A DNA stretch of 64,000 nt from Candidatus Peregrinibacteria bacterium RIFOXYA2_FULL_41_18 (GTDB taxonomy: Bacteria > Patescibacteriota > Gracilibacteria > UBA1369 > UBA12470), in the NCBI GenBank assembly GCA_001788795.1, contig MFXH01000007.1:1-64000 (forward strand), read 5' to 3'. Position 1 is the stretch's first letter. Each line of letters opens with the position of its first letter. Below are positions 6,987 through 52,800 of this stretch, in pieces. Made by a program: the position numbers and the translations under genes. The notes under the pieces were generated by a model that saw nothing but the letters and a program-made list of their open reading frames with translations, was not told where the DNA came from and made no database searches.

Positions 6987-8306
6987 ATGGGTAATGAGTT
7001 TTGCGGAACAAAACCGCTTGATAATATTGCGCAAGGGAGCGCTAACGCTTCCAATGCGCTGTACGAAGTAAAAGATATTTCCCTCGCGAAACAAGGTCAT
7101 ATGAATATCGAAGTTGCCCGCAGGCAGATGGGCGCTCTTATGAAAGTTAAAGAAAGATTTGCTAAGGAAAAACCTCTTAAAGGTCTTCGAATCGGCATGG
7201 CTCTTCATGTCACAAAAGAAACTGCAAATCTTGTCGATACTTTAATCGCAGGTGGAGCGGAAGTTGCAATAACAGGTTGCAATCCTCTTTCTACGCAAGA
7301 TGATGTTGCGGCCGCACTCGCTGAAAACGGAGTTCGTGTTTATGGCTACAAGGGCGAGAACAAAGAAGATTATTACAAATATATAAATAAGATTATTGAC
7401 TTCAAACCTCAAATCACAATCGATGACGGCTGTGATTTAGTCTCTGAAATTCATCTCAAACATCCTGAACTTATAGCTGATATTATCGGCGGTTGCGAGG
7501 AAACAACAACGGGAGTAATCAGACTCAATTCGATGGCTCGCGATAACGCGCTCAAGTATCCGATGATCGCAGTAAATGACAATAAGACCAAGCATTTGAT
7601 GGACAATTATTACGGTACCGGCCAGTCAACACTTGATGGAATTATAAGAGCTTCAAACATATTATTTGCCGGCAAAACTCTTGTCGTTCTCGGATATGGA
7701 AGTTGTGGAAAAGGCTGTTCTCTCCGAGGTCGCGGAATGGGTGCAAATGTGATTGTTACCGAAGTTGACAATTTCTGCGCTCTTCAAGCGAAGATGGACG
7801 GTTTCCGTGTTATGAAAATGGAGGAAGCTTGCAAATTGGGCGATATTTTTATAACAGTTACCGGCGATAAAAACGTGATTCGTCCCGAGCACATGAAACA
7901 GATGAAGGAAGGCGCAATCATGGCAAATTCCGGACATTTCGATAATGAGATCGACATGAAAGGTCTCGAGAAAATCGCGACCGGAAAGAGACGCGTAAGA
8001 CATTATTTTGATGAATATATTGTTGATGGAAAAGTCTTGTATGTTGCCGGCGAGGGTCGCTTGGTTAATTTGGCTGCTGCTGAAGGACATCCGAGCGAGG
8101 TGATGTCACTTTCTTTCTGCGGACAGGCTTTGGCTTGTGAGTTTTTGGTAAAAAATAAAGGCAAATTGGAAGTTCGTGTTCATCAATTGCCAAAAGAAGT
8201 CGACGATTTCATCGCCGGACTGCAATTGGACGCTATGGGCGTAGAGATAGATGAATTAACGGAGGAACAGATTAAGTATTTGGCGGGGTGGCAGGAGGGG
8301 ACTTGA
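6987..8306 (+). CDS. ahcY: Adenosylhomocysteinase with repeat-derived N-terminal extension
   Basis: 439 residues. It hydrolyses S-adenosylhomocysteine to adenosine and homocysteine with bound NAD. Signatures: DDGCDLVSEIH, IAVNDNKTKHLMDNYYGTGQSTLDGI with catalytic Lys/Asp/Asn region, and the Rossmann VVLGYGSCGKGCSLRGRGMG. The conserved family N-terminus (YEVKDISLAKQGHMNIE) starts only at about residue 26; residues 4-25 are encoded by a copy of the 61-65 bp palindromic element (6997-7061). The next Met is inside the conserved domain, so the start codon must lie before the element. The last residues (LAGWQEGT) do not show the usual KPxxYRY end. Confidence 0.93.
   Translation: MGNEFCGTKPLDNIAQGSANASNALYEVKDISLAKQGHMNIEVARRQMGALMKVKERFAKEKPLKGLRIGMALHVTKETANLVDTLIAGGAEVAITGCNPLSTQDDVAAALAENGVRVYGYKGENKEDYYKYINKIIDFKPQITIDDGCDLVSEIHLKHPELIADIIGGCEETTTGVIRLNSMARDNALKYPMIAVNDNKTKHLMDNYYGTGQSTLDGIIRASNILFAGKTLVVLGYGSCGKGCSLRGRGMGANVIVTEVDNFCALQAKMDGFRVMKMEEACKLGDIFITVTGDKNVIRPEHMKQMKEGAIMANSGHFDNEIDMKGLEKIATGKRRVRHYFDEYIVDGKVLYVAGEGRLVNLAAAEGHPSEVMSLSFCGQALACEFLVKNKGKLEVRVHQLPKEVDDFIAGLQLDAMGVEIDELTEEQIKYLAGWQEGT
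6997..7061 (+). repeat. Double-hairpin palindromic element, copy D (inside ahcY)
   Basis: 65 bp matching the other three copies in order. GAGTTTTG pairs with CAAAAC as hairpin 1, then comes an ATAATATTGCGCAAG junction. Hairpin 2 is GCGCA..GGAGCG with CGCTTCC..TGCGC, ending in CTG. It is 4 bp longer than the other copies. It encodes residues 4-25 of AhcY in frame, directly after the start codon. Confidence 0.75.
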
Positions 8307-10758: not shown

Positions 10759-11744
10759 TGAAAGAAAGATTTTTGAAAATTTTTGAGCAGTTCAAGAAAA
10801 AAACCATTTTGGTCGTAGGCGACACGATGCTCGATCATTATTTGCATGGGACTGTTTCAAGACAATCGCCGGAAGCTCCCGTACCTGTTCTTCTCGCGGA
10901 GCGAGATGAATATAGGCTTGGCGGAGCTGCGAATGTTGCAAATAATTTGGCAAGAATCGGAGCTACTCCAATCCTTGTTTCCATAATCGGAAAAGATACG
11001 AATGGAGAAAAACTTGTGCAAATGCTCGATGCCGAAGGTATTTCGACTCGCGGATTGATAGTGACTGTTGATCGCCCGACAACCGAGAAGCTTCGCGTCA
11101 TTGATAATGGGAATAAACAGCTCATAAGACTCGATTTCGAGAAGACCGAAGAGATCGGCGAACGGCTCGAAGATGAACTTATTTCAAGATTCGACAAGTT
11201 GCTTAAGGAGGCTGACGGAGTATTGATTTCTGATTATGCAAAAGGTGTGATGAGTCCGAGTTTCATCAAGTATGTAATTGAAGAATGCGCTAAGACGAAA
11301 ACTCCCGTATTCATAGATCCTAAACCGCGCCATAAAGATTTCTACAAAAATTCTTTCTTGCTGACTCCTAACGAAAAAGAGGCGAGCGAAATGGCCGGCG
11401 TCGAAGCGATAACGGATGGGAATTGCAACGAGGTTGGCAAGCGTCTTGCCGACATGTTGTCTGCGAATATTGTACTTACGCGCGGAGCGAAAGGTATGAG
11501 AATTTTTTCGCGCGAGTCTCAAGTTTTTGATGTTCCGGCCAAAGCTCAATCGGTTTTTGATGTCACCGGTGCCGGCGATACCGTAATATCTTTTGTTGCT
11601 CTGGCTTGCTTGTCAGGACTGACAATCCTTGAATCGTGCCAATTGGCAAACTTCGCAGCTAGAATTGTTATTGAAAAATTTGGTACTGAGACTGTTAAGA
11701 GTGATGAGATTTTGAAAATTTTATCACAAGAATTTAATGATTAA
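10758..11744 (+). CDS. hldE1: D-glycero-beta-D-manno-heptose-7-phosphate kinase (HldE N-terminal domain type)
   Basis: 328 residues of PfkB/ribokinase fold, covering only the kinase half of the two-domain HldE of enterobacteria. Motifs: GDTMLDHYLHGTVSRQSPEAPVPVL, RLGGAANVANNLARIG, and the C-terminal DVTGAGDTVISFVALA anion hole and catalytic Asp. The cytidylyl/adenylyltransferase half is not here but is fused to the next gene. Starts and stops overlap both neighbours. Confidence 0.92.
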   Translation: MKERFLKIFEQFKKKTILVVGDTMLDHYLHGTVSRQSPEAPVPVLLAERDEYRLGGAANVANNLARIGATPILVSIIGKDTNGEKLVQMLDAEGISTRGLIVTVDRPTTEKLRVIDNGNKQLIRLDFEKTEEIGERLEDELISRFDKLLKEADGVLISDYAKGVMSPSFIKYVIEECAKTKTPVFIDPKPRHKDFYKNSFLLTPNEKEASEMAGVEAITDGNCNEVGKRLADMLSANIVLTRGAKGMRIFSRESQVFDVPAKAQSVFDVTGAGDTVISFVALACLSGLTILESCQLANFAARIVIEKFGTETVKSDEILKILSQEFND

Positions 11745-12753
11745 AGCGACTTTCTTAGACAGAGACGGAGTCATCAATCGCGACACCAATTATGTCCATA
11801 AGACTTCCGATTTCGAATTTATAACAGGTTCGAAAGAGGCAATACAAATGCTGACTCAAGCAGGATATAAGGTTTTTATAATATCAAATCAGTCCGGTAT
11901 CGGTCGCGGATTTTATACGGCGGAAGATGTCGAGATTTTGCATAAATATATGATTGATGAGATTGAAAAATACGGCGGAAAAATTGAACGCATCTATTAC
12001 TGCCCTCATACCGCTGAAATGAATTGCGAGTGCAGGAAACCTAAACCTTATTTTGTTTTACAAGCGGCACATGAGTTTGATATCGATCTGCGAGCGAGTT
12101 TTTTTATCGGCGATCATGATTCCGATATCGCGTGCGGAAAAAACGCCGGAGTCCATACGATAAGAGTTCTCTCGGGTCATGAAGCAAATGGAGTTTCGCA
12201 TTCGCGAAACAACTTATATTATGGCGCACGAACCGCTTCGCTTTCTTGCGCTGAAGGAAATCCAAAAGCGGATTTCGTATGTGCCGATTTGATGGCCACA
12301 ACCAAGGCTATTTTGAAAATAAAAACTCTTCAAGAGCTCGAAAAAATCGACTTCACCGGAAAGAAAATTGTAACTACTAACGGATGTTTCGACGTCATCC
12401 ACGAAGGTCATCTAAAAGCGCTTCGCGAGTCCAAAGAGCAAGGCGACATCTTGATTGTCGGATTGAATAGCGATGAGTCTGTCCGAAAGTTGAAAGGACC
12501 AACTCGACCTATTAATAATGAGTTTTCACGCGCTTGTGCTCTAGCCGCAATTGATTATGTTGATTATGTTTTTATATTTGGCGAAGACAATCCGATTGCG
12601 TTTCTCGAGATTCTAAAACCTGATGTACATACCAATTCCGAAGAGTATGGTGAGAATTGCGTGGAGGCTTCCACGGTTAAGAAAAATGGTGGGAAAATTT
12701 ATTTGATTAAAAAAATTCCGGGCATCTCAACAACCAACATCTTGAATGGCTAA
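11737..12753 (+). CDS. Fusion: heptose-1,7-bisphosphate phosphatase (GmhB) + heptose-1-phosphate adenylyltransferase (HldE C-terminal domain)
   Basis: 338 residues. Residues 1-190 form a HAD phosphatase of the GmhB/HisB-N type: FLDRDGVINRD, VFIISNQSGIGRG, zinc ligands in CPHTAEMNCECRKPKP, and GDHDSDIACGKNAG. Residues 198-338 form a nucleotidyltransferase: VTTNGCFDVIHEGHLKAL with the HxGH motif, GLNSDESVRKLKG and the end GISTTNIL. The usual fusion joins kinase and nucleotidyltransferase; here phosphatase and nucleotidyltransferase are joined. About 20 residues (152-172) near the end of the HAD domain are encoded by a palindromic repeat copy (12192-12252). Confidence 0.9.
   Translation: MIKATFLDRDGVINRDTNYVHKTSDFEFITGSKEAIQMLTQAGYKVFIISNQSGIGRGFYTAEDVEILHKYMIDEIEKYGGKIERIYYCPHTAEMNCECRKPKPYFVLQAAHEFDIDLRASFFIGDHDSDIACGKNAGVHTIRVLSGHEANGVSHSRNNLYYGARTASLSCAEGNPKADFVCADLMATTKAILKIKTLQELEKIDFTGKKIVTTNGCFDVIHEGHLKALRESKEQGDILIVGLNSDESVRKLKGPTRPINNEFSRACALAAIDYVDYVFIFGEDNPIAFLEILKPDVHTNSEEYGENCVEASTVKKNGGKIYLIKKIPGISTTNILNG
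12192..12252 (+). repeat. Double-hairpin palindromic element, copy A (inside gmhB-hldE2)
   Basis: 61 bp. Hairpin 1 is GTTTCGC/GCGAAAC, the spacer is AACTTATATTATG, and hairpin 2 is GCGCACG with CTTGCGC. It is read in frame as part of a loop late in the phosphatase domain, in the opposite orientation (relative to the coding strand) from the dprA copy. Confidence 0.88.
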
Positions 12754-20230: not shown

Positions 20231-20379
20231 ATGAGGGGAACAGCTGGTTCCCCTCATGAACTCCCCTCCAAGCTGTTGTTCGCAAAATAGTCCTCTCGAA
20301 GGCTCGCAAAACGTGCCTTCGGGACCCACAAGACTCCAAGTACGTTTTTCTACGCGACGCTCGGACTGTTTTGCTCACC
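20231..20379. repeat. Structured repeat family S1, copy 1 (downstream of dnaJ)
   Basis: About 150 bp, shared with 36787-36936. Hairpin I is ATGAGGGGAAC/GTTCCCCTCAT (20231-20257), which may also end the dnaJ transcript. After ACTCCCCTCCAAGCTG comes outer stem II, GCAAAATAGTCC (20282-20293) with GGACTGTTTTGC (20363-20374). Inner stem III is AAAACGT (20308-20314) with ACGTTTT (20342-20348). The second copy has different bases but the same pairings. Confidence 0.82.
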
Positions 20380-21009: not shown

Positions 21010-21055
21010 AGAAGTATGGGGAAGTAGAAGAAGTTGGAGAAGTGACATAGTGACA
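21009..21055 (+). repeat. Purine-rich post-stop repeat, copy 1
   Basis: It begins at the stop codon of the membrane protein: GAAGAAGTATGGGGAAG, then GTTGGAGAAGTGACATAGTGAC. It belongs to a family of six copies that directly follow plus-strand genes. Confidence 0.75.
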
Positions 21056-21127
21056 GATTTTTTCGTTATTCGAATTAAATTGCTTGCTTAAGGGAAGGTT
21101 TATACATAAAATGTCCCTGCTTTGTAC

Positions 21128-23565: not shown

Positions 23566-24744
23566 ATGACTTATGCCTTACGACTTACGACCATTCTAAT
23601 TTCTACACTTCTACTTCTCCCCCTCGCCCACGCCTCGACTTTTTCAGACATCTACTCTTCCGATCCGCTAAACGAATCTATCGATTATCTTGTAAGCAAT
23701 AATGTTGTCGAAGGATATGATGATTCGACTTTCCGCCCGCTCAATCTTATAAACAGAGCCGAATTCACGAAGATGATAGTGGAGGGAGTTGTCGGGGAGA
23801 CACCGGATGCAACCTTGTATTATGACTGTTTTGATGATGTGACGAATGAGTGGTTTGCCAAATATATCTGTTATGCGGAGGATCAAGGTTGGGTGCAAGG
23901 ATATGATGGAATCAACTTCAAGCCTGCCGATAATATAACTCGCGCCGAAGCTGTTAAAATTCTTGCCGAGGCTTATGCGTGGGAATTGTCTGGGGATACA
24001 TATTGGAGCGAGTTTGGAGATAATGAAAAAGACGTTTGGTATTACGATTATCTTCTGATGGCGGAAGAGAGAGGGATTTTTGACGAATTAAGTTCCTATA
24101 TCTCCCCTAATGAACTTATTTCAAGAAGACAGATGTCTACACTGCTTTATCGCGCTATGAAATATGAGGCCGGAGAAGAGTTCGAGATTTGGAGTATTGA
24201 TGATCGCGAGATGTCTTATACTGATGTCTTGGCGACAGGGATCGCCGCCGCTTATCCGTCCGATATGGATATGACCGTCTATTCGCAATCCGGCTGGCCG
24301 TATGGGTGTTATGGCTTTGCGGTTAAGAATGTTACTGCGTGGAAGTATGGCGAGGTAATCGATATGACGGATTTGGCGGATACTATTGGGTGGGACGGAT
24401 CTTATATTTGGAGCCCCGAGCAATTCAGTTCTTTTGCGAAAAATTATGATACGGATTTGGTAATGACTTATTACGGGTCGGCTGAATTTTTGTTTAAAAA
24501 ATTGGCTGCCGGTGAACCGGTTGTTCTCTATATCCCCTATTATATAGGAGAAAACAATGTCGGACATCAGGTTATGGCTTACTCATTTGATGAGGATGGA
24601 GTGTGGATTGCGGATAGCTTATATGGAGGAGTCCAGTCACAGGTCGGATATGATGAGGTTTTCTTCGAGGATGATTCTTATACGACAAACATCACCGACT
24701 TGAGGAGAGTTAAGGATGGCGGAGAGTATAAGATGGAGTGGTGA
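23566..24744 (+). CDS. SLH-domain protein with C-terminal C39-like (papain-fold) domain
   Basis: 392 residues: a signal peptide (1-23, ending LAHAS), SLH modules at about 24-205 (FSDIYSSDPLNESIDYL, GYDDSTFRPLNLINR; a second with GYDGINFKPADNITR; a third, weaker, with ISRRQMSTLLYRA), then a papain-like domain at about 235-392. In the latter, WPYGCYGFAVKN carries a candidate catalytic Cys and NNVGHQVMAYSFDEDGVWIADS the His followed by an Asn/Asp-type strand, as in Peptidase_C39_2 proteins. It probably sits in the wall through SLH and cleaves surface peptides or proteins. Activity is inferred from motifs only. Confidence 0.78.
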   Translation: MTYALRLTTILISTLLLLPLAHASTFSDIYSSDPLNESIDYLVSNNVVEGYDDSTFRPLNLINRAEFTKMIVEGVVGETPDATLYYDCFDDVTNEWFAKYICYAEDQGWVQGYDGINFKPADNITRAEAVKILAEAYAWELSGDTYWSEFGDNEKDVWYYDYLLMAEERGIFDELSSYISPNELISRRQMSTLLYRAMKYEAGEEFEIWSIDDREMSYTDVLATGIAAAYPSDMDMTVYSQSGWPYGCYGFAVKNVTAWKYGEVIDMTDLADTIGWDGSYIWSPEQFSSFAKNYDTDLVMTYYGSAEFLFKKLAAGEPVVLYIPYYIGENNVGHQVMAYSFDEDGVWIADSLYGGVQSQVGYDEVFFEDDSYTTNITDLRRVKDGGEYKMEW

Positions 24745-24780
24745 GGAAGAAGTTGAAGAAGTATGGGAAGTGACTTAGTA
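24744..24780 (+). repeat. Purine-rich post-stop repeat, copy 2
   Basis: It starts at the stop codon of the SLH/C39 gene: GAGGAAGAAGTTGAAGAAG, then TATGGGAAGTGACTTAGTAG. Confidence 0.72.
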
Positions 24781-24868
24781 GATTTAGCTATGAGTATTCC
24801 CGTTTTGATATTTTTGTCAAAATTTGGTTTAATGGTTTTGCACTAATCAAATCCTTAATTTCATATAT

Positions 24869-27815: not shown

Positions 27816-28622
27816 ATGAAACCAAAGGTTATTGTACTTACGGGTTACGGAATCAATTCTGAAGAGGAAACCAAGTTCGTTTTTGAAAAGTCCGGTGCCG
27901 ATGCCGAAATCGTTCATATAAATGATCTCGTCGATGGAACTAAGAAACTATCAAACTATCAGATCATGGCATTTCCGGGTGGATTCGCTCACGGAGACGA
28001 CACCGGTTCCGGCAACGCTTATGCGAATAAAATGCGTAATAACATTTGGGAGCAGGTTCAGAAATTCCTCACTCAAGACAAGTTGGTAATCGGCGTATGT
28101 AACGGATGCCAAATCATTGCGAATCTCGGGCTCGTTCCCGGATTTGACGGCAAGTACGGCGAGAGGCTTATCGCTCTAAGACATAATGCTTCTGCAAGAT
28201 ACGAATGCAGATGGGTTAATATAAAAACCGATTCGAAAAAATGCGTTTGGACGCGCGACATAGACACTATCAGATGCCCTGTATCACATGGCGAGGGAAA
28301 TTTTTATATGGAGAAAGATGTGCTGAAAAAATTAAATCGCGATGACCAAGTCGTGTTCAGATATGTTGATGATAACGGCAAACCTGCCAAGGGGAAGTTC
28401 CCTGTAAATCCGAACGGCGCAGTCGAAGATATTGCAGCCGTTTGCGATCCTACCGGAAGGGTTTTGGCAATCATGCCTCACCCTGAAAGGAACTGGAATT
28501 TCTATAATGAAGACGACTGGGGACTTCTTAAGGAAAAAGCTCTTCGTGAAGGTGGCAAGCTACCAAAAGAAGGGCAAGGCATGAAGATGTTCAGAAATGG
28601 GGTGGAGTATTTCATGAAGTAG
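27816..28622 (+). CDS. purQ: FGAM synthase glutaminase subunit
   Basis: 268 residues from ATG 27816, 4 nt after the purL stop. This class I glutamine amidotransferase supplies ammonia to PurL. Seen are VIVLTGYGINSEEETKFVF, MAFPGGFAHGDDTGSGNAYA, the nucleophile loop VIGVCNGCQIIANLGLVPG with its Cys, HGEGNF, and the His-Glu pair in IMPHPERNWNF. It is longer than the small-type PurQ of about 225 residues and resembles the C-terminal domain of the single-chain PurL, consistent with a split of that protein. Confidence 0.95.
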   Translation: MKPKVIVLTGYGINSEEETKFVFEKSGADAEIVHINDLVDGTKKLSNYQIMAFPGGFAHGDDTGSGNAYANKMRNNIWEQVQKFLTQDKLVIGVCNGCQIIANLGLVPGFDGKYGERLIALRHNASARYECRWVNIKTDSKKCVWTRDIDTIRCPVSHGEGNFYMEKDVLKKLNRDDQVVFRYVDDNGKPAKGKFPVNPNGAVEDIAAVCDPTGRVLAIMPHPERNWNFYNEDDWGLLKEKALREGGKLPKEGQGMKMFRNGVEYFMK

Positions 28623-28658
28623 GGGAAGTATTGGAAGTGACATAGTAACGTAGTGAAG
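28620..28658 (+). repeat. Purine-rich post-stop repeat, copy 3
   Basis: It begins in the purQ stop codon: TAGGGGAAGTATTGGAAG, then TGACATAGTAACGTAGTGAAG. Confidence 0.7.
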
Positions 28659-30752: not shown

Positions 30753-31076
30753 GTGAGTAAGGAATAGATAGTAGACAGTAGACGGTAGAATTGTACAAGA
30801 CGGAAGGCATAATTAAAAGTCTCAAAGCGAAAACAACTCAGAGTTTCACCGTGGACACAATTTGATAAGGCAAAACTCGGCTTTAACAAGCCCAAGTATA
30901 AGATTCGACTAGTCAAGCCGCCACGATTAAGCAACATGACTAGTCGACGTACTAATTACGATGCTGATAAATTTCTTCTTGTTTCCGCCTTCTGTGTTCT
31001 GTGTTCTGTGTTCTATTTGCCTATTGCCTTCTGCCTTCTGCCTTGCTTTAATGTTATTAGTTTTAATTTTAAAAAT
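30753..31076 (+). other. Noncoding gap with two GACTAGTC palindromes and a pyrimidine simple repeat
   Basis: GACTAGTC occurs at 30907-30914 and 30938-30945. A TTCTGTG triple repeat (about 30988-31010) and CTTCTGC repeats (31027-31044) follow. An open frame runs through 30936-31076 into the downstream gene, but it is made of this simple sequence and is probably not translated. Confidence 0.5.
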
Positions 31077-31856
31077 ATGCTTACTCAAGACATAAAACAT
31101 GGCTTTGCGAGATTATCGCGCTCCAAAAAGGTTGTTTTGATATCCGCTATTTTGACCTCCTTCAGCTGTTTACTTCCTTGGTATCATGACCTGAGTGTTT
31201 ACGGCGTCGCTGATTCGTATCTGGGCATCAATGGACCTCTTTTCTTAGCTGGAATATTTATATTTGCAATGAATGCGTTTTTGACTCTATCAATCGCTAT
31301 GCCGATGATTGGAAAAAGATTTGTAAAACTTCCTCTGAAAGGATCTGTTGCGGGAATGCTGGTTGGGTTGCAATCTTTATTTTTGTTGCTAATCGCAAAT
31401 TCGGTTTTTTATCATGCTAAATTCGGTATCAGTATTTCTCAAAAAACCGCTGGGTTCGGTATGGCAATCGCGATGTTTTCCGTATTGGCGCTAATTGGCG
31501 GAAGTTATTTTTGGTATAAAGAAGAATCTGTTGACCGAGGTTTTGACGAGGCTGTAGGAAGAAAAGAACCTCTTATAAAAATTCCGGAAGTGGCTCCTGT
31601 TAGACAGCACACCAATTTAACTCCTAAGACTCCCGTTGAACCTCCGATCGCACCTCAACAACAAAAAAACGAGCCTAATAAATTAAGAGGATTCGGGTTT
31701 AGAGATTCCGGAAGAGGCGACACCATTGAGAGTTTACTTAAAAAACATCAAAATCTTACAGGAGAATCTCAGCCGTCCACCGTTTCGGAGACGAACATAA
31801 GAAGTGGCGAAGATAGAGGTAAAATTGAGAATATGAGGATTAGGATGGACTTGTAG
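31077..31856 (+). CDS. Membrane protein of unknown function
   Basis: 259 residues from ATG 31077, chosen because MLTQDIKHGFARLSRSKK gives a normal cytoplasmic start. Four hydrophobic helices follow (VVLISAILTSFSCLLPWYH, GPLFLAGIFIFAMNAFLTLSIAM, GMLVGLQSLFLLLIANSVFY, GFGMAIAMFSVLALIGGSYFWY). The tail of about 110 residues is Pro/Gln-rich and charged (PVEPPIAPQQQKNEPNK, then RGFGFRDSGRGDTIESLLKKHQ), probably cytoplasmic and disordered. No family is recognised. A post-stop repeat copy follows directly. Confidence 0.65.
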   Translation: MLTQDIKHGFARLSRSKKVVLISAILTSFSCLLPWYHDLSVYGVADSYLGINGPLFLAGIFIFAMNAFLTLSIAMPMIGKRFVKLPLKGSVAGMLVGLQSLFLLLIANSVFYHAKFGISISQKTAGFGMAIAMFSVLALIGGSYFWYKEESVDRGFDEAVGRKEPLIKIPEVAPVRQHTNLTPKTPVEPPIAPQQQKNEPNKLRGFGFRDSGRGDTIESLLKKHQNLTGESQPSTVSETNIRSGEDRGKIENMRIRMDL

Positions 31857-31903
31857 GAGGGAAGTTGAAGAAGTATGGGAAGTATGAGAAGTGACATAGT
31901 GAA
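31857..31903 (+). repeat. Purine-rich post-stop repeat, copy 4
   Basis: Immediately after the stop: GAGGGAAGTTGAAGAAG, TATGGGAAGTATGAGAAG, TGACATAGTGAA. Confidence 0.75.
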
Positions 31904-31926
31904 ATATATTATCTATAAATCTTTAT

Positions 31927-32166: not shown

Positions 32167-32341
32167 GTTGCAGGTTGCAGATGGCAGATGGTGATTTGAG
32201 GTTTGCTATTTTCCACTTTTTTTTAATGTCCATGTGATACTTTTCCTGTACCGTCAAATACTTTTCGCAAAGATGAGTTTTGCTATCACAAAATGGTCGA
32301 TCATAACGTCGCGGAAGAACAAAGTTTTTTCCAATCGAATG

Positions 32342-32402
32342 AGTTTTGTTGTCGCAAAACAAATTATAATATGGCGCAAGGAATACTTCGCGTCCTTGCG
32401 CT
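32342..32402 (+). repeat. Double-hairpin palindromic element, copy B (upstream of recA)
   Basis: 61 bp: GTTTTGT..GCAAAAC as hairpin 1, an AAATTATAATATG spacer, then GCGCAAG (32374-32380) with CTTGCGC (32395-32401). Hairpin 1 differs from copies A and C on both arms at the matching position (C-G to T-A), so pairing is kept. Confidence 0.9.
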
Positions 32403-32410
32403 GAAAAAGA

Positions 32411-32467: not shown

Positions 32468-33553
32468 ATGACTGACGAAATCAAAAACGAGGGGAAGGCC
32501 AGAGCCCTTGATTTGGCAATCGATCAAATCGAAAAAAGTTATGGCAAAGGCGCGATCATGCGCATGGGTGAAGCCAAGAAGATCAATATCGAAACAATCC
32601 CTACTGGATCTCTTTCTCTCGACATTGCGCTTGGCGGAGGCATACCGAAAGGAAGAGTTATTGAGATTTTCGGCCCAGAAAGCAGCGGTAAAACAACTCT
32701 CGCTCTTCATGTGATAGCGGAATGCCAGAAGAAAGGCGGACAAGCTGCATTCATAGACGCAGAGCATGCACTCGATCCAGAATACGCAAGAAAAATCGGC
32801 GTCAAGGTTGATGACTTATTGATTTCTCAACCTGATACCGGAGAACAAGCTCTTGAGATCACAGAGACTCTTGTCAGATCAAACGCTGTCGATGTAATCG
32901 TAGTAGATTCCGTCGCCGCGTTAACGCCACGCGCAGAAATAGAGGGCGAAATGGGAGACTCTCACATGGGCTTGCAAGCTCGCCTGATGAGCCAAGCTCT
33001 TCGCAAGCTTACAGCCGCAATATCCAAGTCTAAGGCGACAGTTATTTTCATCAATCAAATAAGAATGAAAATCGGCGTGATGTTCGGCAATCCTGAGACA
33101 ACAACAGGCGGTAATGCACTTAAGTTCTACTCTTCAGTCAGAATGGATATCCGTGGAATCGGCAAGATCGAAGGACTTAATACCGAAGGCAAAGAGTTTG
33201 TCGGTAATCGCGTGGTTGTGAAAGTTGTGAAGAATAAGGTCGCTCCTCCGTTCAAGACTGCCGAATTCGACATCATGTATAACAAAGGGATTTCAGCAAG
33301 CGGAGATGTCATAGATCTTGGAGTTAAGTACGAGCTTATAAGAAAATCCGGCGCATTCTTCAGCTATGGAGATCTCAGGCTCGGACAAGGCAGGGAAAAT
33401 GCCAAGTCGTTCCTAGAAGCTGACAGGAAACTCATGATTGAAATCGAGAAGAAGGTAAAAGATTTCTGTATAGCAAGGCAACTTGAACATGACGGCATTA
33501 AGCCTGTTGAGAAACAAGCGTTGCCTGTTCAAAAAATAATTGCAAAGAAATAA
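32468..33553 (+). CDS. recA: Recombinase RecA
   Basis: 361 residues. ATP-dependent strand-exchange protein and coprotease. Motifs: [31 protein letters not shown] (Walker A), [39 protein letters not shown] (Walker B and loop L1), [31 protein letters not shown] (loop L2). The ATG follows CAAAAATAAAAA, with no Shine-Dalgarno. recX follows 53 bp later. Confidence 0.98.
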
Positions 33554-36786: not shown

Positions 36787-36936
36787 GTGAGTTGAACCTT
36801 GGGTTCCCCTCACGCACTCCCCTCCAAGCTGATGTTCATAAAATAGCTCTCGCGAAGGCTCGCAAAATGCTAATTTTGGACCCAGCGAGACCCAAACTAG
36901 CATTTGGCTACGCGGGCTCAAGCTATTTTACTCACC
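36787..36936. repeat. Structured repeat family S1, copy 2 (upstream of nusA)
   Basis: The second copy of the element found after dnaJ. Hairpin I is GTGAG..GAACC with GGTTC..CTCAC. Shared ACTCCCCTCCAAGCTG follows. Stem II is AAAATAGCT (36840-36848) with AGCTATTTT (36921-36929), and stem III is AAATGCTA (36865-36872) with TAGCATTT (36898-36905). Stem bases differ from copy 1 while pairing is kept. Confidence 0.82.
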
Positions 36937-38213: not shown

Positions 38214-38262
38214 CAGGGAAGAAGAAGAAGTTGGGGAAGTATGAGAAGTGACGTAGTTACAG
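38214..38262 (+). repeat. Purine-rich post-stop repeat, copy 5
   Basis: Directly after the nusA stop: CAGGGAAGAAGAAGAAG, TTGGGGAAGTATGAGAAG, TGACGTAGTTAC. Confidence 0.78.
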
Positions 38263-38265
38263 AGT

Positions 38266-38299
38266 GAAACCGCGGATCGAGGGATCTGCGGTTTTTTTA
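38266..38299 (+). terminator. Intrinsic terminator after nusA
   Basis: AAACCGCGGATC, loop GAGG, GATCTGCGGTTT followed by a T-run. Confidence 0.93.
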
Positions 38300-41462: not shown

Positions 41463-42545
41463 TTATAGTTTCACATAGCACATTCCACCGACATTTTTCA
41501 CCTTCCCCATCATTTCCAGATCGAGAAGATTGGAGATTAGAGATTGGGGATTTGAGTTTAGAGACTTTGCTATGGTGTTTATGTGAGTCGGCTCGTGTGT
41601 TAGAGCGCCGAGTAAGTTCGCGAGTTGATTGTTTTCGCGTGAAAATTCCAATTTAAGTTGAGTCGGCGTTATGTCGTCTATTACTTGACTCGGATCATCT
41701 AGCAATACCGCTTTTTGCGACTTGATCAGCTTGTGGCAGCCCGATTGTCTGTAAGAATCGAATTCACCTGGGACCGCATATACAAGCCTGTTTTCGGAGA
41801 ACGCATAGTCTGCCGTAATCAGCGCACCCGACTTCTGCGGTGCTTCGACGACAATCGTTGCATCGGAAATACCCGCGATAATTCTGTTGCGAATCGGGAA
41901 CATGAACTTCTGAGAAGGAACGCCGGGTGGAGATTCGGAGATAATCAGTCCGCCGCGTGCGATTATCTCGTCGGCAAGATGTTTGTTTTCGGTTGGATAT
42001 ATCTGATCGAGTCCGTTTGCGAGAACGGCGATATTCGGCATGTTTTTCTTGAGAGATTTAGTATGCGCATCGGTATCGATTCCATAAGCAAGACCGCTTA
42101 CAACTGTGATTTTATATTCGGCGAGTTTATCTGTTATTGCTGAAACTGCACGCTTGCCGTAAGTTGAAATTTTTCTTGTACCGACTATGGCGATTCGTGG
42201 ATTTTTCAGACATTCGAGTTCACCCTTGTAATAGAGAATTACCGGTGGGCAAGATGTGTTTTTCAGATTTTCCGGATAGTTCGCATCTGTGATTGCAAGA
42301 ATTTTCATGCCGAGTTTTTGCAGGCGTTCGTAATCTTTCTCAGGATCGAGATTTTTATTTTTGATTTCGCTAATGAGTTTCGCTTCCGCGAAACAACTTA
42401 TATTATTGCGCAAGGAATGCTTTGCGTCCTTGCGCTGTTCATAAGCTCGGCGGGCATTGAAATTATGTTTTTTCAAAATCGCGATAAGCGTACGAGGCCT
42501 GTCGTAGAGGTGATTCTGAAGGGCGTTGAGATAAATTAAATCCAT
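41463..42545 (-). CDS. dprA: DNA processing protein DprA
   Basis: 360 residues. It loads RecA on incoming single-stranded DNA during transformation. The Rossmann core shows IAIVGTRKISTYGKRAV, VVSGLAYGIDTDAHTKSL, AVLANGLDQIYPTENKHL, PPGVPSQKFMFPIRNRIIAG, VVEAPQKSGALITADYA and GCHKLIKSQKAVLL, with a winged helix at the C-terminus. Residues about 37-58 (QRKDAKHSLRNNISCFAEAK) are encoded by a palindromic element between the N-terminal helical region and the core. Another stretch (SKSLNSNPQSLISNLLDLE) comes from GATTGGAGATTAGAGA-type simple sequence. Confidence 0.94.
   Translation of the reverse strand: MDLIYLNALQNHLYDRPRTLIAILKKHNFNARRAYEQRKDAKHSLRNNISCFAEAKLISEIKNKNLDPEKDYERLQKLGMKILAITDANYPENLKNTSCPPVILYYKGELECLKNPRIAIVGTRKISTYGKRAVSAITDKLAEYKITVVSGLAYGIDTDAHTKSLKKNMPNIAVLANGLDQIYPTENKHLADEIIARGGLIISESPPGVPSQKFMFPIRNRIIAGISDATIVVEAPQKSGALITADYAFSENRLVYAVPGEFDSYRQSGCHKLIKSQKAVLLDDPSQVIDDITPTQLKLEFSRENNQLANLLGALTHEPTHINTIAKSLNSNPQSLISNLLDLEMMGKVKNVGGMCYVKL
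42376..42436 (+). repeat. Double-hairpin palindromic element, copy C (inside dprA)
   Basis: 61 bp: GTTTCGC (42377-42383)/GCGAAAC (42388-42394), spacer AACTTATATTATT, GCGCAAG (42408-42414)/CTTGCGC (42429-42435). It is in frame in dprA (minus strand) and translates to a peptide also seen, untranslated, in the reverse frames of copies A and B. Confidence 0.92.
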
Positions 42546-47958: not shown

Positions 47959-50900
47959 TTATTGCTGTTGGAATACGCGGTTCGTTGTTACGCCGCTGTC
48001 GTCATAGAGATATAACTGGTCTGCAAATCTGTAAACCAACTCTGCAATCTCACCTCTGGTCATGTATTCACCAGGGTTGAAGTTGTCGCTCAACAACAAG
48101 TCATAGTAAATACCCATTTCGTTCGCAAGTTGTACATATGTTGCATACCAAGCCGTTTCGTCCACATCCGCATACAATGTCGTAGTAATTTCATCTTTCA
48201 AATTGCCATCAAGACCAAACGCCTCGATAACCATCTTAAGGATTTCCACTTTGTTTACCGTGCTTCCCGGTTGGAACGAGCCATCAGGATAACCCTCAAC
48301 GATTCCTTGCTCATAAGCTTCCTGCAAATAAGGAATATACCATGAACCGTCCATTACATCCGAGAAGTTCATGTTTCCGGTAATTGATGTTTGAGTCTCG
48401 TCTACGTCATAGATATCGAATACATTATCCAATGTTGCGAATATGATTTTGAGAGCCTCAACGCGATTAACATCTGCATTTGGCTTATACGTACCATCTG
48501 AATATCCTTCGATAACTCCTTCCTCGCTTAGGTAGTTAATAGCTTCGGCATATGGATTCCATGGTTCGACGTCCGAATATCCGGTTTCAGGGGCGTATTC
48601 GCCATAGCTGTCATAGTACCAGTCATCATAGTATCCGGTTTCACTGCACTCATACCAATAATCGTAGTAGTAGCATCCGTCATCTGGGCAGTAGTAGTAA
48701 TCTCCATATACCGTATCATGTCCCGCCGTACAACCAGCCCACTCGTCATCTGTCGTGTAATCGTAGTAGTAATAATACTCTCCGTCGCAATAATAGTAAT
48801 CGTCGAAGTACCAGCATCCATCGTCAGAACAATAATAGTAGTAGCCTAGGTATTCATCATAATATTCCGTGCAGTAATCATCCCAATAGTTAGAGTCATA
48901 TCCTTCTGTAGTGTCCCAATAATCATACTGGTAATCATCATAGTAGTATTGGTACCCGTCGCAATAATAGTAGTAATCATAGTAGTAACATCCGTCATCG
49001 CAGACGTAGTAACCGTTCTCGTCATACCAGCAGCTGTATTCGTTATCTTCATAATCCCAGTAATAGTAGTCACTATAATCTCCTTCGTAGTCTGATGAAC
49101 ACCATGAATATCCATCATCGTAGTAATAACATCCATCGTCACAGTAATAATATCCGCCGTACCATGGATCGTTATAGTAGTAGCAGTTTGAATCCCACCA
49201 TGTCGAACCTTGTTCGTCATAGTATCCATCCCAATCATAGAAATACCTATACCCGTCGCAATAATAGTACTCGTCATAGTAATAGCATCCATCATCGCAA
49301 ACGTAGTAGCCGTTTTCGTCGTACGAACAATCGTTTTGATATCCTACGTCATAACTATCTTCACACCATGTGTATCCATCCGAGTAGTAGTAGCATCCAT
49401 CATCTGGGCAGTAATAATATGTTCCATAGTCATAACATCCCTCCCAGTAGCTGTAGCTATCCCAATAATCCCCATACCAGTCGGTGTAATAATCTTCATA
49501 GTAGTAGTAATACCCATCGCAATAGTAATAATCCTCGTAGTAATAACATCCATCATCACAATAATAGTATGTTCCATACCATTGATCTGTGTAATCTGAA
49601 CAGTCTGAGCTCAACCAATAATTTGTCTCGTAGTAACCGTAGGTATATTGGCTACAGTCATAAGTTCCATCATAGTAGTAGTAGCATCCTGTGCTTGAAT
49701 CATAGGCGTAGTCATCGTAATAGACGTAGCTATCGTAATAGCTCCAGTATTGGTCGTAATTGTCGTAATCGTAGTTGTCATAATAGTAATAGTATCCATC
49801 ATCGCACCAATACATGTAGCTGTTGTAATAACATCCGTTACTGCACATGTAATATCCATATCTTGAATCATACTGACAGTCGTCGCTGTAATAGTAGTAG
49901 CTATAGCTTCCTTCACACCAATAGTATCCGTAATAGCTTGCATCGTAGTAATAACACCCGTCTGGGCAGTAGTAATAATACGTACCGCTATAGCTGTCAT
50001 AATACGAAGTACATGATGAATTGTAGTCGTAGTCAGGTTCGAAATATCCTTCGTCGTATGTGTAATACGAGTCTGCGCCGTAATAGTAATAGCTCATGCT
50101 ATCTTCGCAGTAATAGTATCCGTAATAACTTTCATCATAGTAGTAACATCCATCTGCACAGTAGTAATAATAGGTGTAAGAATCCCTATCATAGTATGCG
50201 GTGCATGATGAATTGTATGAATAATCCCATTCGAAATATCCGTCGTAGTAACTATCGTAGTCGTAATCGTATGTTGTGTAGTAATAGCTTGAGCCGCTAT
50301 AGCTGCAATAGTAGTAGCCATAGTAGCTTTCGTCGTAATACCAACATCCATCCGGACAATAGTAATAATATGTTCCGGAATAGTTATCGTAATAACTTAC
50401 GCAAGCGCTGTTGTAATAGTAATCCGATTCGAAATATCCTTCGTCGTAACTGTAATCTACGCTGTAATCATCATAGTAGGTGTATTCGCCACTACCCGAA
50501 CACCAATAATACCCATAGTCGTATTCATCATAGTAATAACATCCATCCGTACAGTAGTAATAATAGCTGCCATAATAGCTGTCATAGTACGCATCGCACG
50601 ATGAATTATAACTGTAATCATATTCGAAATAACCTTCCGAATAAGAATATGTGCTTTCCGCATAGTAGTAATAATAGCTACCACTGTTGTCGCAATAATA
50701 ATAGCCGTAATAGTACGGATCGTAATACCAACAGCTGTCCGGACAGGAATAATAATAAGTATAAGAATAGCTGTCGTAATAATAATCGCACAATCCGTTA
50801 TACGAATAATCATCTTCGAAATAGCCTTCTGAATAATCGGAGCTGCTATCGTCATAGTAATAAGACATGCCACTACCCGAACACCAATAATCTCCATAAT

Positions 50901-51357
50901 AATCCGGATCATAGTAAGAACATTCATCAGGACAGTAATAATAATAAGTCCCCGAATAACTATCATAATTCGCCGTACATAACGAATTGTATGAATAATC
51001 TTCTTCAAAATATCCTTCATAATAACTGTCAGTACTTGAACCTCCATAATAGAAATAATTTCCAGTACCGTAGCAGTAATAATAGCCATAAGCATCCTCA
51101 TCGTAATAGTAACAACCATCCGGACAATAATAGTAGTACCCTCCGGTATAGTAGTCGCTGTATGCATAGCATGATGAACTTGAAGAGTAGCTGTCTTCGA
51201 AATACCCTTCGGAATATGAGTAAGCTATCTCTCCAACAGAGTTTTTGAGCTCTTGAGTAGGCGCAGCGGATGCGAGCTGGATGCTCATCACTACGACCAA
51301 CAGTGCTATTCCGCATACTAACAAACGGGATAGCTTTTGAGCCATTTGGTTTACCAT
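47959..51357 (-). CDS. Tyrosine/cysteine-rich repeat surface protein with C-terminal SLH domains
   Basis: 1132 residues. A signal peptide (1-32, ending LASAAP) is followed by seven repeats of 63-66 residues. Their EGYFE starts lie at residues 50, 114, 177, 241, 306, 372 (DGYFE) and 436. Each unit reads EGYFE, DYSYNSxC, a YYD..YYYYCPDGCYYYD block and YYGYYYC, giving four Cys per unit. Shorter units (DGCYYYDxYYYC) continue to about 930, then three SLH domains (GYSDGTYKPNADVNR, GYPDGSFQPGSTVNK, and a third). Tyr is by far the commonest residue, with Asp, Ser, Gly and Cys; Lys, Arg, Leu and Val are nearly absent from the repeats. No family is recognised. A disulfide-bonded or dityrosine-crosslinked surface fibre is the inference. 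Confidence 0.85.
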   Translation of the reverse strand: MVNQMAQKLSRLLVCGIALLVVVMSIQLASAAPTQELKNSVGEIAYSYSEGYFEDSYSSSSSCYAYSDYYTGGYYYYCPDGCYYYDEDAYGYYYCYGTGNYFYYGGSSTDSYYEGYFEEDYSYNSLCTANYDSYSGTYYYYCPDECSYYDPDYYGDYWCSGSGMSYYYDDSSSDYSEGYFEDDYSYNGLCDYYYDSYSYTYYYSCPDSCWYYDPYYYGYYYCDNSGSYYYYYAESTYSYSEGYFEYDYSYNSSCDAYYDSYYGSYYYYCTDGCYYYDEYDYGYYWCSGSGEYTYYDDYSVDYSYDEGYFESDYYYNSACVSYYDNYSGTYYYYCPDGCWYYDESYYGYYYCSYSGSSYYYTTYDYDYDSYYDGYFEWDYSYNSSCTAYYDRDSYTYYYYCADGCYYYDESYYGYYYCEDSMSYYYYGADSYYTYDEGYFEPDYDYNSSCTSYYDSYSGTYYYYCPDGCYYYDASYYGYYWCEGSYSYYYYSDDCQYDSRYGYYMCSNGCYYNSYMYWCDDGYYYYYDNYDYDNYDQYWSYYDSYVYYDDYAYDSSTGCYYYYDGTYDCSQYTYGYYETNYWLSSDCSDYTDQWYGTYYYCDDGCYYYEDYYYCDGYYYYYEDYYTDWYGDYWDSYSYWEGCYDYGTYYYCPDDGCYYYSDGYTWCEDSYDVGYQNDCSYDENGYYVCDDGCYYYDEYYYCDGYRYFYDWDGYYDEQGSTWWDSNCYYYNDPWYGGYYYCDDGCYYYDDGYSWCSSDYEGDYSDYYYWDYEDNEYSCWYDENGYYVCDDGCYYYDYYYYCDGYQYYYDDYQYDYWDTTEGYDSNYWDDYCTEYYDEYLGYYYYCSDDGCWYFDDYYYCDGEYYYYYDYTTDDEWAGCTAGHDTVYGDYYYCPDDGCYYYDYWYECSETGYYDDWYYDSYGEYAPETGYSDVEPWNPYAEAINYLSEEGVIEGYSDGTYKPNADVNRVEALKIIFATLDNVFDIYDVDETQTSITGNMNFSDVMDGSWYIPYLQEAYEQGIVEGYPDGSFQPGSTVNKVEILKMVIEAFGLDGNLKDEITTTLYADVDETAWYATYVQLANEMGIYYDLLLSDNFNPGEYMTRGEIAELVYRFADQLYLYDDSGVTTNRVFQQQ
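49878..51210 (-). repeat. Seven tandem ~190-200 bp repeats coding Tyr/Cys units
   Basis: The DNA behind residues 50-493 of the surface protein. Units are 189-198 bp and differ at many synonymous and some amino-acid positions, so they are not recent duplicates; the Cys and EGYFE positions are kept by selection. Confidence 0.85.
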
Positions 51358-51584: not shown

Positions 51585-52748
51585 ATGAATAAAAAGGCTA
51601 ATATCGTCACTGCGGCGTTCTCTCTAGTTGCGTTTTTCGGATCTCTTTCGCTTGGGCATTTTTATTCAAAAGACCCCATTTCTGATGTTGATAAACATTT
51701 TTCGAGACATTTCTATACCAGTTTTTTTGCTTTTGATACCGAAGACGAGGATATATCGATAAAATACAGTACTCGCTTGTTTTTGGTAAAAGCTGATGAT
51801 TCCGAATTGCATGACTCGGCAGATGAAAATGTAATTTACGTTTCGGCAAAAGAGGGAGTCAAGTCCGTATGTCTCTACACTCCGCCTACTGATGCGACTT
51901 ACGGCGGTGAAGTTTCTTCTGTAACAGTCTCCGATCTTATCACTCCGGGGGAAGAATTCACTGTTGATGTTTTGGTGAAAAATACCGGAACTGCGGCTTG
52001 GTTTTCCTTCGATTCGGGATGCACAAATCAAACTTATGTAAATCTTGGCACGTGGAATGACCAAGATCGTTCAAGTATATTCGGCCAAGGCTCTTCTGTT
52101 GTCGACGGATGGATTTCCGACAGCCGAGTCGCAATGGTTGAAGATATGGTTTATCCGGGTGAAATTGGAACATTTAGGTTTATAAGTGTTGCTCCTGCAA
52201 CAGATGCTTGGTACAAGGAGTACTTTGCCCCTGTAGCTGAAAACATCAGGTGGATGGACGAAGCTGTAGCGGAAGTTAAGTTTGTAGCCGACTCAAGCGG
52301 CTCCTTGAGCACTACGTTAATGGATGTTGTGACAACTTCTACGAACAGCACATTGCTGACAGGTGAAAAATGGATAGGTGTAGATCTTTCTGATCAGATG
52401 ATGTATCTGCACGTAGGCGATACTGTTATAAGAGAGTTTCAAATAAGCTCCGGTAAGGCCTCAACCCCAACTCCAACCGGAAGCTATTCTATATTAAACA
52501 AGCAGGAGTTGAGAGTCGGCGGCGAATGGCCTCACTACTCAATGCCTAACTGGATGGCCTTCACGTCTGTCGGACATGGTATTCACGCCCTTCCTTATCT
52601 CGCAAACGATGGTGGCGCGTTCTGGTACGAAGCGCTTGAACATATCGGCACTCCTGTAAGCCATGGATGCATAAGAGTTCTTCCTGAAGAGGCTAAGATT
52701 GTTTATGCGTTTGGAGAGGTTGGGATGAGGGTGGAGATACAGAGGTAG
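51585..52748 (+). CDS. L,D-transpeptidase (YkuD) with N-terminal Ig-like region
   Basis: 387 residues from ATG 51585. The N-terminal membrane anchor or signal (MNKKANIVTAAFSLVAFFGSLSLG) is followed by a beta-rich region at about 110-250, with LITPGEEFTVDVLVKNTGTAAWFSFDSG, like NBR1/CARDB Ig-type modules. The YkuD domain covers about 265-387: KWIGVDLSDQMMYLHVGD, TPTPTGSYSI, HGIHALPYL and the catalytic HIGTPVSHGCIRVLPEEA. It forms 3-3 peptidoglycan crosslinks or attaches proteins to the wall. It is divergent from the Tyr/Cys-rich SLH gene, which may be a partner at the wall. A post-stop repeat follows. Confidence 0.9.
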   Translation: MNKKANIVTAAFSLVAFFGSLSLGHFYSKDPISDVDKHFSRHFYTSFFAFDTEDEDISIKYSTRLFLVKADDSELHDSADENVIYVSAKEGVKSVCLYTPPTDATYGGEVSSVTVSDLITPGEEFTVDVLVKNTGTAAWFSFDSGCTNQTYVNLGTWNDQDRSSIFGQGSSVVDGWISDSRVAMVEDMVYPGEIGTFRFISVAPATDAWYKEYFAPVAENIRWMDEAVAEVKFVADSSGSLSTTLMDVVTTSTNSTLLTGEKWIGVDLSDQMMYLHVGDTVIREFQISSGKASTPTPTGSYSILNKQELRVGGEWPHYSMPNWMAFTSVGHGIHALPYLANDGGAFWYEALEHIGTPVSHGCIRVLPEEAKIVYAFGEVGMRVEIQR

Positions 52749-52800
52749 TAGGAGAAGTTGGGGAAGTATGAGAAGTGACGTAGTGACGTAGTGATGTAGT
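52749..52800 (+). repeat. Purine-rich post-stop repeat, copy 6
   Basis: Directly after the transpeptidase stop: TAGGAGAAGTTGGGGAAG, TATGAGAAGTGACGTAG, with TGACGTAG tandemly repeated. Confidence 0.8.

Follow-up and report, generated by a model that had tools for sequence, protein, structure and literature searches.

Short double-hairpin elements in Peregrinibacteria, with in-frame insertions in genes and junctions at tRNA 3' ends

Palindromic sequences inserted in frame into proteins are best known from Rickettsia. Miniature elements of the IS200/IS605 group (PATE) and REPINs are non-autonomous sequences with hairpins at both ends and strand-related insertion. The Rickettsia palindromic elements are ~150 nt long (PMC10969869). 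Double-hairpin elements (DHE) of fungal mitochondria consist of two adjacent hairpins within tens of bp and are dispersed and potentially mobile; they are organellar and GC-rich, and in fission yeasts they lie mainly in intergenic regions and rRNA genes (PMC10085805).

Here we analyzed a window of 64,000 nucleotides (positions 1-64,000 of contig MFXH01000007.1, assembly GCA_001788795.1) from Candidatus Peregrinibacteria bacterium RIFOXYA2_FULL_41_18, whose assembly (hereafter G000) comprises 1.24 Mb in 20 contigs and is 99% complete. An initial annotation of the window had proposed four copies of a palindromic element with two hairpins, three of them equal in length, and all four were recovered, three at 63 nt each and one at 66 nt (Table 1). 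It had also placed three copies inside conserved genes. This holds for gmhB-hldE2, where the insert lies well inside the gene and splits it between the HAD and cytidylyltransferase domains, but not fully for the other two: the dprA copy is located in a variable, poorly conserved N-terminus ahead of the Pfam domain, and the ahcY copy is an N-terminal extension. Both orientations are used relative to the genes, as annotated, but all four copies are on the contig + strand. Like the Rickettsia palindromic elements, to which the copies had been likened, these are short palindromic repeats found in frame in unrelated genes of a small genome; unlike them, they are 63 nt long (half the length), have two separate hairpins, form exact junctions with tRNA 3' ends and occur in a different phylum. 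The analogy may be drawn for the in-frame behavior only, and neither a relationship nor a common sequence has been shown. With the mitochondrial DHE they share two hairpins and evidence of mobility, which is a similarity of form only. We found no such element described for Peregrinibacteria or the candidate phyla radiation in the open literature (subscription papers were outside the scope).

Table 1. Element copies, parts of copy 1 and host genes in the window
Feature	Position	Strand	Description
Element copy 1	42375..42437	+	63 nt, GAG...CTG; antisense within dprA; top covariance-model match, 92.1 bits
Hairpin 1 of copy 1	42377..42394	+	GTTTCGC/GCGAAAC; from folding
AT-rich spacer of copy 1	42395..42407	+	AACTTATATTATT; consensus RRCTTATAATATNG; from alignment
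Hairpin 2 of copy 1	42408..42435	+	GCGCAAGG...CCTTGCGC; from folding
Element copy 2	12191..12253	+	63 nt; 85.2 bits; sense, in frame within the gmhB-hldE2 fusion gene
Element copy 3	32341..32403	+	63 nt; 83.6 bits; intergenic, between ORFs 30936-31856 and 32468-33553
Element copy 4	6996..7061	+	66 nt, diverged; 42.8 bits; forms the ahcY N-terminal extension
Host gene gmhB-hldE2 fusion	11737..12753	+	HAD and cytidylyltransferase domains flank the insert
Host gene dprA	41463..42545	-	PF02481, E 6e-79, residues 75-281, downstream of the insert
Host gene ahcY	6987..8306	+	PF05221 and PF00670; Pfam AdoHcyase begins at residue 26

The family unit of ~63 bp reads GAG, hairpin 1, AT-rich linker, hairpin 2 and CTG (consensus GAGTTTCGCATTCGCGAAACGACTTATAATATGGCGCAAGGAATGCTTCGCGTCCTTGCGCTG). 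Alignment and folding bore out the annotated order of hairpin, AT-rich spacer and hairpin. Single-strand folding of the window copies gave z-scores of -3.0 to -6.1, well under the energies of shuffled sequences, and the linker motif has three matches in the window vs 0.07 expected. Among 69 aligned copies, 96.1% of cells pair, and double-sided changes were found in 15 of 17 pairs, in agreement with the earlier remark that paired bases change together; compensated cells numbered 140, vs 30.5 after shuffling and 4-15 in controls that were slid. In the same alignment, hairpin 1 is paired in 98.7% of cells (6/7 pairs compensated) and the outer helix of hairpin 2 in 93.3% (7/8 pairs compensated). 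The 69-copy alignment was fitted to the structure and is biased towards it; an unfitted 13-copy alignment agrees in direction. Pairing is kept while the loops and the hairpin 2 sequence vary freely (GTTTCGC/GCGAAAC, GTTTTGC/GCAAAAC, GATTGC/GCAATC). The end positions are settled only to ~3 nt, because the FemAB site described below can be read either as 66 inserted nt with no duplication or as 63 nt plus 3. No solitary hairpins were recognizable in G000, where exact-pattern matches of hairpin 1 or hairpin 2 coincide with model hits, and no longer parent carrying the two hairpins at separate ends was found, all 32 hairpin-1 matches being in short copies. Several hairpin loops bear a CCTGCCTGCCGGCAGGCAGG-type palindrome.

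BLASTN of the window's own assembly detected 23 places, 13 of which were used to build a covariance model. The model recovered 58 copies in G000 at E<=0.01 and 72 places at E<=1, with E-values down to 2e-17, in intergenic, tRNA-flanking and coding contexts. Pattern searches of the same genome gave 32 matches for hairpin 1 and 12 for hairpin 2 (<=3 mismatches), vs 0 for either reversed control. In a class-wide search of 353 genomes, the element occurred in only 3, belonging to three genera of one family, and the other 350 were without it; besides G000 these are Candidatus Peregrinibacteria GW2011_GWF2_43_17 (G002), with 23 copies, and a third genome (G001), with one. A pattern scan of 84,980 species returned several GW2011_GWF2_43_17 contigs and five single matches in other phyla; we attribute the latter to chance, as ~5-6 are expected by our own estimate and none repeats. 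There was no element match in viral contigs and no Rfam match at the element places in the window. Canonical copies diverge 8-30% from one another, and the copies at C18:41799 of G000 and C9:26462 of G002, both beside the same tRNA-Arg, are probably one shared old copy. This divergence and the probably shared copy suggest that the family has existed for long and has moved little in recent times, most copies being now old and decaying; recent activity has not been shown, given the divergence. At C2:88717 (L063) of G002, one copy is nested in the second-hairpin loop of another.

After assignment of the copies to ORFs, orthologues from G001, G002 and other families served for comparison. Insert-free orthologues revealed in-frame inserts of 51-69 nt in genes for a FemAB/GNAT-like protein, a radical-SAM protein, transketolase, nfo, pabB and a glycosyltransferase. 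The FemAB/GNAT-like gene of G000 reads TAT-AAT-[66 nt]-GGC-AGA-ATG, where G001 has TAT-AAC-GGC-AGG-ATG and G002 has TAT-AAC-GGG-CGG-ATG. The radical-SAM gene is longer by 69 nt than in G002, the transketolase N-terminal subunit by 69 nt than in G001, and the glycosyltransferase of G002 by 63 nt than in both G000 and G001. In nfo (endonuclease IV), G000 and G002 carry copies at different sites, each site being empty in the other genome. The pabB gene of G002 has two in-frame inserts, ilvD is ~60 nt longer than a distant orthologue, and the murD copy retains the linker and hairpin 2 only (net +33 nt). For the window genes, an allele without the insert was found for gmhB-hldE2 in G002, where the alignment is weaker; orthologue comparison of dprA gave no clean empty site. 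The same holds for coaBC. The empty sites in sister genera, in part reciprocal, show that the element was mobile and that copies were inserted after the genera split. The annotated insertion would have been refuted by orthologues bearing the same residues or by a lack of further copies; the sister genera are without the insert and conserve its flanks, and the 58 copies remove the second objection.

In-frame insertion, as first proposed from the window, is real and recurs in ~nine proteins, with sense and antisense frames both used. Several frames are in use and no conserved peptide is encoded in a preferred one, although a sense frame reading GVSH-SRN is seen five times. In the 66-nt consensus, four frames out of six can be read through, and of the two that are closed, the sense frame has no stop other than the linker TAA. 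By our count, five or more frames are open in variants without this TAA, and most versions of the consensus have five open; 1% of shuffles reach five. A linker TAA or TAG was present in 0/5 in-gene copies read in that sense frame vs 12/20 other copies (p 0.024), so loss of the linker stop in in-frame copies is suggestive only. Insertions in genes survive if they lengthen the gene by a multiple of three and are read in an open frame.

Two features of the family had not been noted in the initial annotation, junctions at tRNA 3' ends and a contig-wise strand bias. In six copies of G000 and three of G002, the CTG (right) end meets the 3' CCA of a tRNA gene exactly or to within one base, and all nine copies are antisense to the tRNA; this is new in the present analysis. 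Eight of the tRNA genes were identified by ARAGORN and the ninth (G002 C6:35286) was recognized by eye. A rough model, in which each genome has ~45 tRNA genes and insertion is restricted to a non-coding target of 10%, gives ~0.03 as the chance expectation. Away from tRNA genes, the right flank is TNG in 10/37 copies with a canonical end (5.9% background, p 4e-5), and the left flank shows AWK before GAG in 47/69 copies vs 9% background. Copies in G002 and G001 (L062, L106, L054) have a conserved right flank, TGGTAACAC..TTTCTACTTATTT..TGT, the opposite strand of which ends in CCA.

Target-site duplication, a check suggested for the window copies, gave a mixed answer: it is clear in only a few copies, and in most it is absent or short and variable, the tRNA copies having no clear one. 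With GAG and CTG taken as the junctions, adjacent direct repeats are in excess over permuted pairings (p 0.0002-0.0004), but the p-value depends on junction placement and rises up to 0.28. Long flanking repeats are few (TTGGATAAGTA/TTGGATAAATA, CACCCGGACGATT/CATCCGGGCGATT, CTAGAAACA); in the window, copy 2 is flanked by AAGCAAAT/AAGGAAAT. Within contigs of G000, copies agree in strand more often than expected (p 0.0016 after removing neighbors); the bias was not significant in G002 (p 0.27). Neither local GC skew nor the direction of neighboring genes accounts for the strand agreement, the latter being if anything opposite.

We consider these sequences most likely to be a family of non-autonomous mobile elements of ~63 bp that were moved in trans via a folded single strand. 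Against this reading, the search of G000 revealed no mobilizing enzyme. A trans-acting enzyme would recognize the folded strand, either RNA or one strand of DNA, a form that we infer from the covariation and the fixed ends. The fixed right end would then be joined to a 3' end that is free, with a preference for CNA termini, CNA being the complement of the TNG right flank. Of the candidate enzymes, a reverse transcriptase that uses CCA-like ends as primers would explain the tRNA junctions best; this cDNA route is the best fit to them and is unproven.

A retroposon is a possibility, if a tentative one: cDNA would be made from the folded RNA with a 3' end as primer (tRNA CCA or a DNA nick), leaving the right end fixed, target duplications variable or missing and some copies truncated at the 5' end. 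The tRNA CCA junctions, the TNG preference elsewhere (that is, CNA-ending primers), the direct repeats, of differing length, that flank some copies and the shortened murD copy all agree with it. Against it, reverse transcriptase RVT_1 (PF00078) is absent from G000 and G001, and the single enzyme of G002 (L177 1300-2238) resembles those of diversity-generating retroelements and has a candidate variable protein encoded upstream; moreover, there is no A tail, most copies are full length and the tRNA copies are without clear duplication. A lost reverse transcriptase cannot be excluded. The narrower idea of a bacterial SINE-like retroposon is unlikely on present evidence. In it, a reverse transcriptase would copy a 63-nt double-hairpin RNA into DNA with CCA 3' ends as primers, mature tRNAs among them; if true, this would explain both insertion exactly behind the tRNA CCA and unrestricted spread into genes.

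Doubtful, too, but worth weighing is an IS200/IS605- or REPIN-type miniature element with two subterminal hairpins. Its mobilization in trans would have relied on an HUH Y1 transposase that works on single-stranded DNA at replication forks and was lost later. The hairpin at each end, the within-contig strand agreement in G000, the AWK before GAG (resembling a left target motif), the lack of a clear duplication at most sites and the Y1 transposase fragments in G001 would all suit it. Elements of this group should show no target duplication and have a conserved tetra- or pentanucleotide 5' of the left end; here the AWK motif is found, yet direct repeats accompany some copies. An HUH enzyme would account for two hairpins and for strand agreement; it leaves the exact CCA junctions unexplained, and these are not expected of PATE or REPINs. 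Y1 transposase (PF01797) is absent from the copy-rich G000 and G002, whereas G001, in which fragments of it are present, has one element copy only. TnpB (PF07282) is absent from G000, and no full-length parent sharing the ends, or with the hairpins at separate ends, was found there. Unlike REP/REPIN sequences, the element ends in GAG and CTG without a GTAG tag and has two different hairpins rather than an inverted pair of one. It is small, non-autonomous and dispersed like classical MITEs, but its left end GAGTTTCG does not match the reverse complement of its right end, CAGCGCAA, so there are no terminal inverted repeats, nor is there a fixed-length duplication, the repeats being variable or absent. 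The element fails the tests for a classical MITE, a REPIN and a currently supported IS200/IS605 satellite.

That the copies are not selfish but a functional RNA or DNA signal under selection (for tRNA 3'-end formation, as a terminator or as a mark of replication polarity) appears improbable. Nine copies at tRNA 3' ends, strand agreement within contigs and a maintained structure could be read in this way, but in-frame inserts at unrelated sites of metabolic genes that are missing in sister genera argue otherwise, and the confinement to one family, the lack of an Rfam match in the window and the lack of a U-run past the hairpin on the tRNA strand also speak against it. Chance palindromes in variable protein loops deserve practically no credence: variability is indeed seen at some host sites, the dprA N-terminus being one, but the genome-wide search, with its 58 places, low E-values, varied contexts and empty reversed-pattern control, refutes this explanation. 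Integron attC sites were dropped as a candidate, as GTTRRRY/RYYYAAC boxes are missing and there are two hairpins instead of one.

Peregrinibacteria, which belong to the candidate phyla radiation, provide an independent case with empty sites in sister genera, and this shows that small genomes can acquire parts of proteins in this manner more than once. The exact tRNA CCA junctions offer a concrete mechanistic handle, by which the question of the mobilizing enzyme for short palindromic elements becomes testable.

Other repeats were observed in the window. A second dispersed repeat, G-rich and ~50 nt long (GAAGT..GAAGT..GAAGTGACRTAG), occurs at 21011-21061, 24739-24789, 28606-28656, 31860-31910, 38217-38267 and 52744-52794, each time starting only a few bases from the stop codon of a + strand ORF. 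Further copies are present on other contigs (L042, L043, L074, L082, L100, L154 and others), and most of these lie on the strand that also carries the double-hairpin element. A 97-nt repeat (20232-20328 and 36788-36884, 78% identical) contains a hairpin and a conserved CTCCCCTCCAAGCTG core, precedes ORFs 20464 and 36966 and has no Rfam match; it is possibly an undescribed leader RNA. On the - strand, a 1132-aa ORF (47959-51357) contains six copies of a repeat unit of ~190-198 nt and many shorter related repeats.
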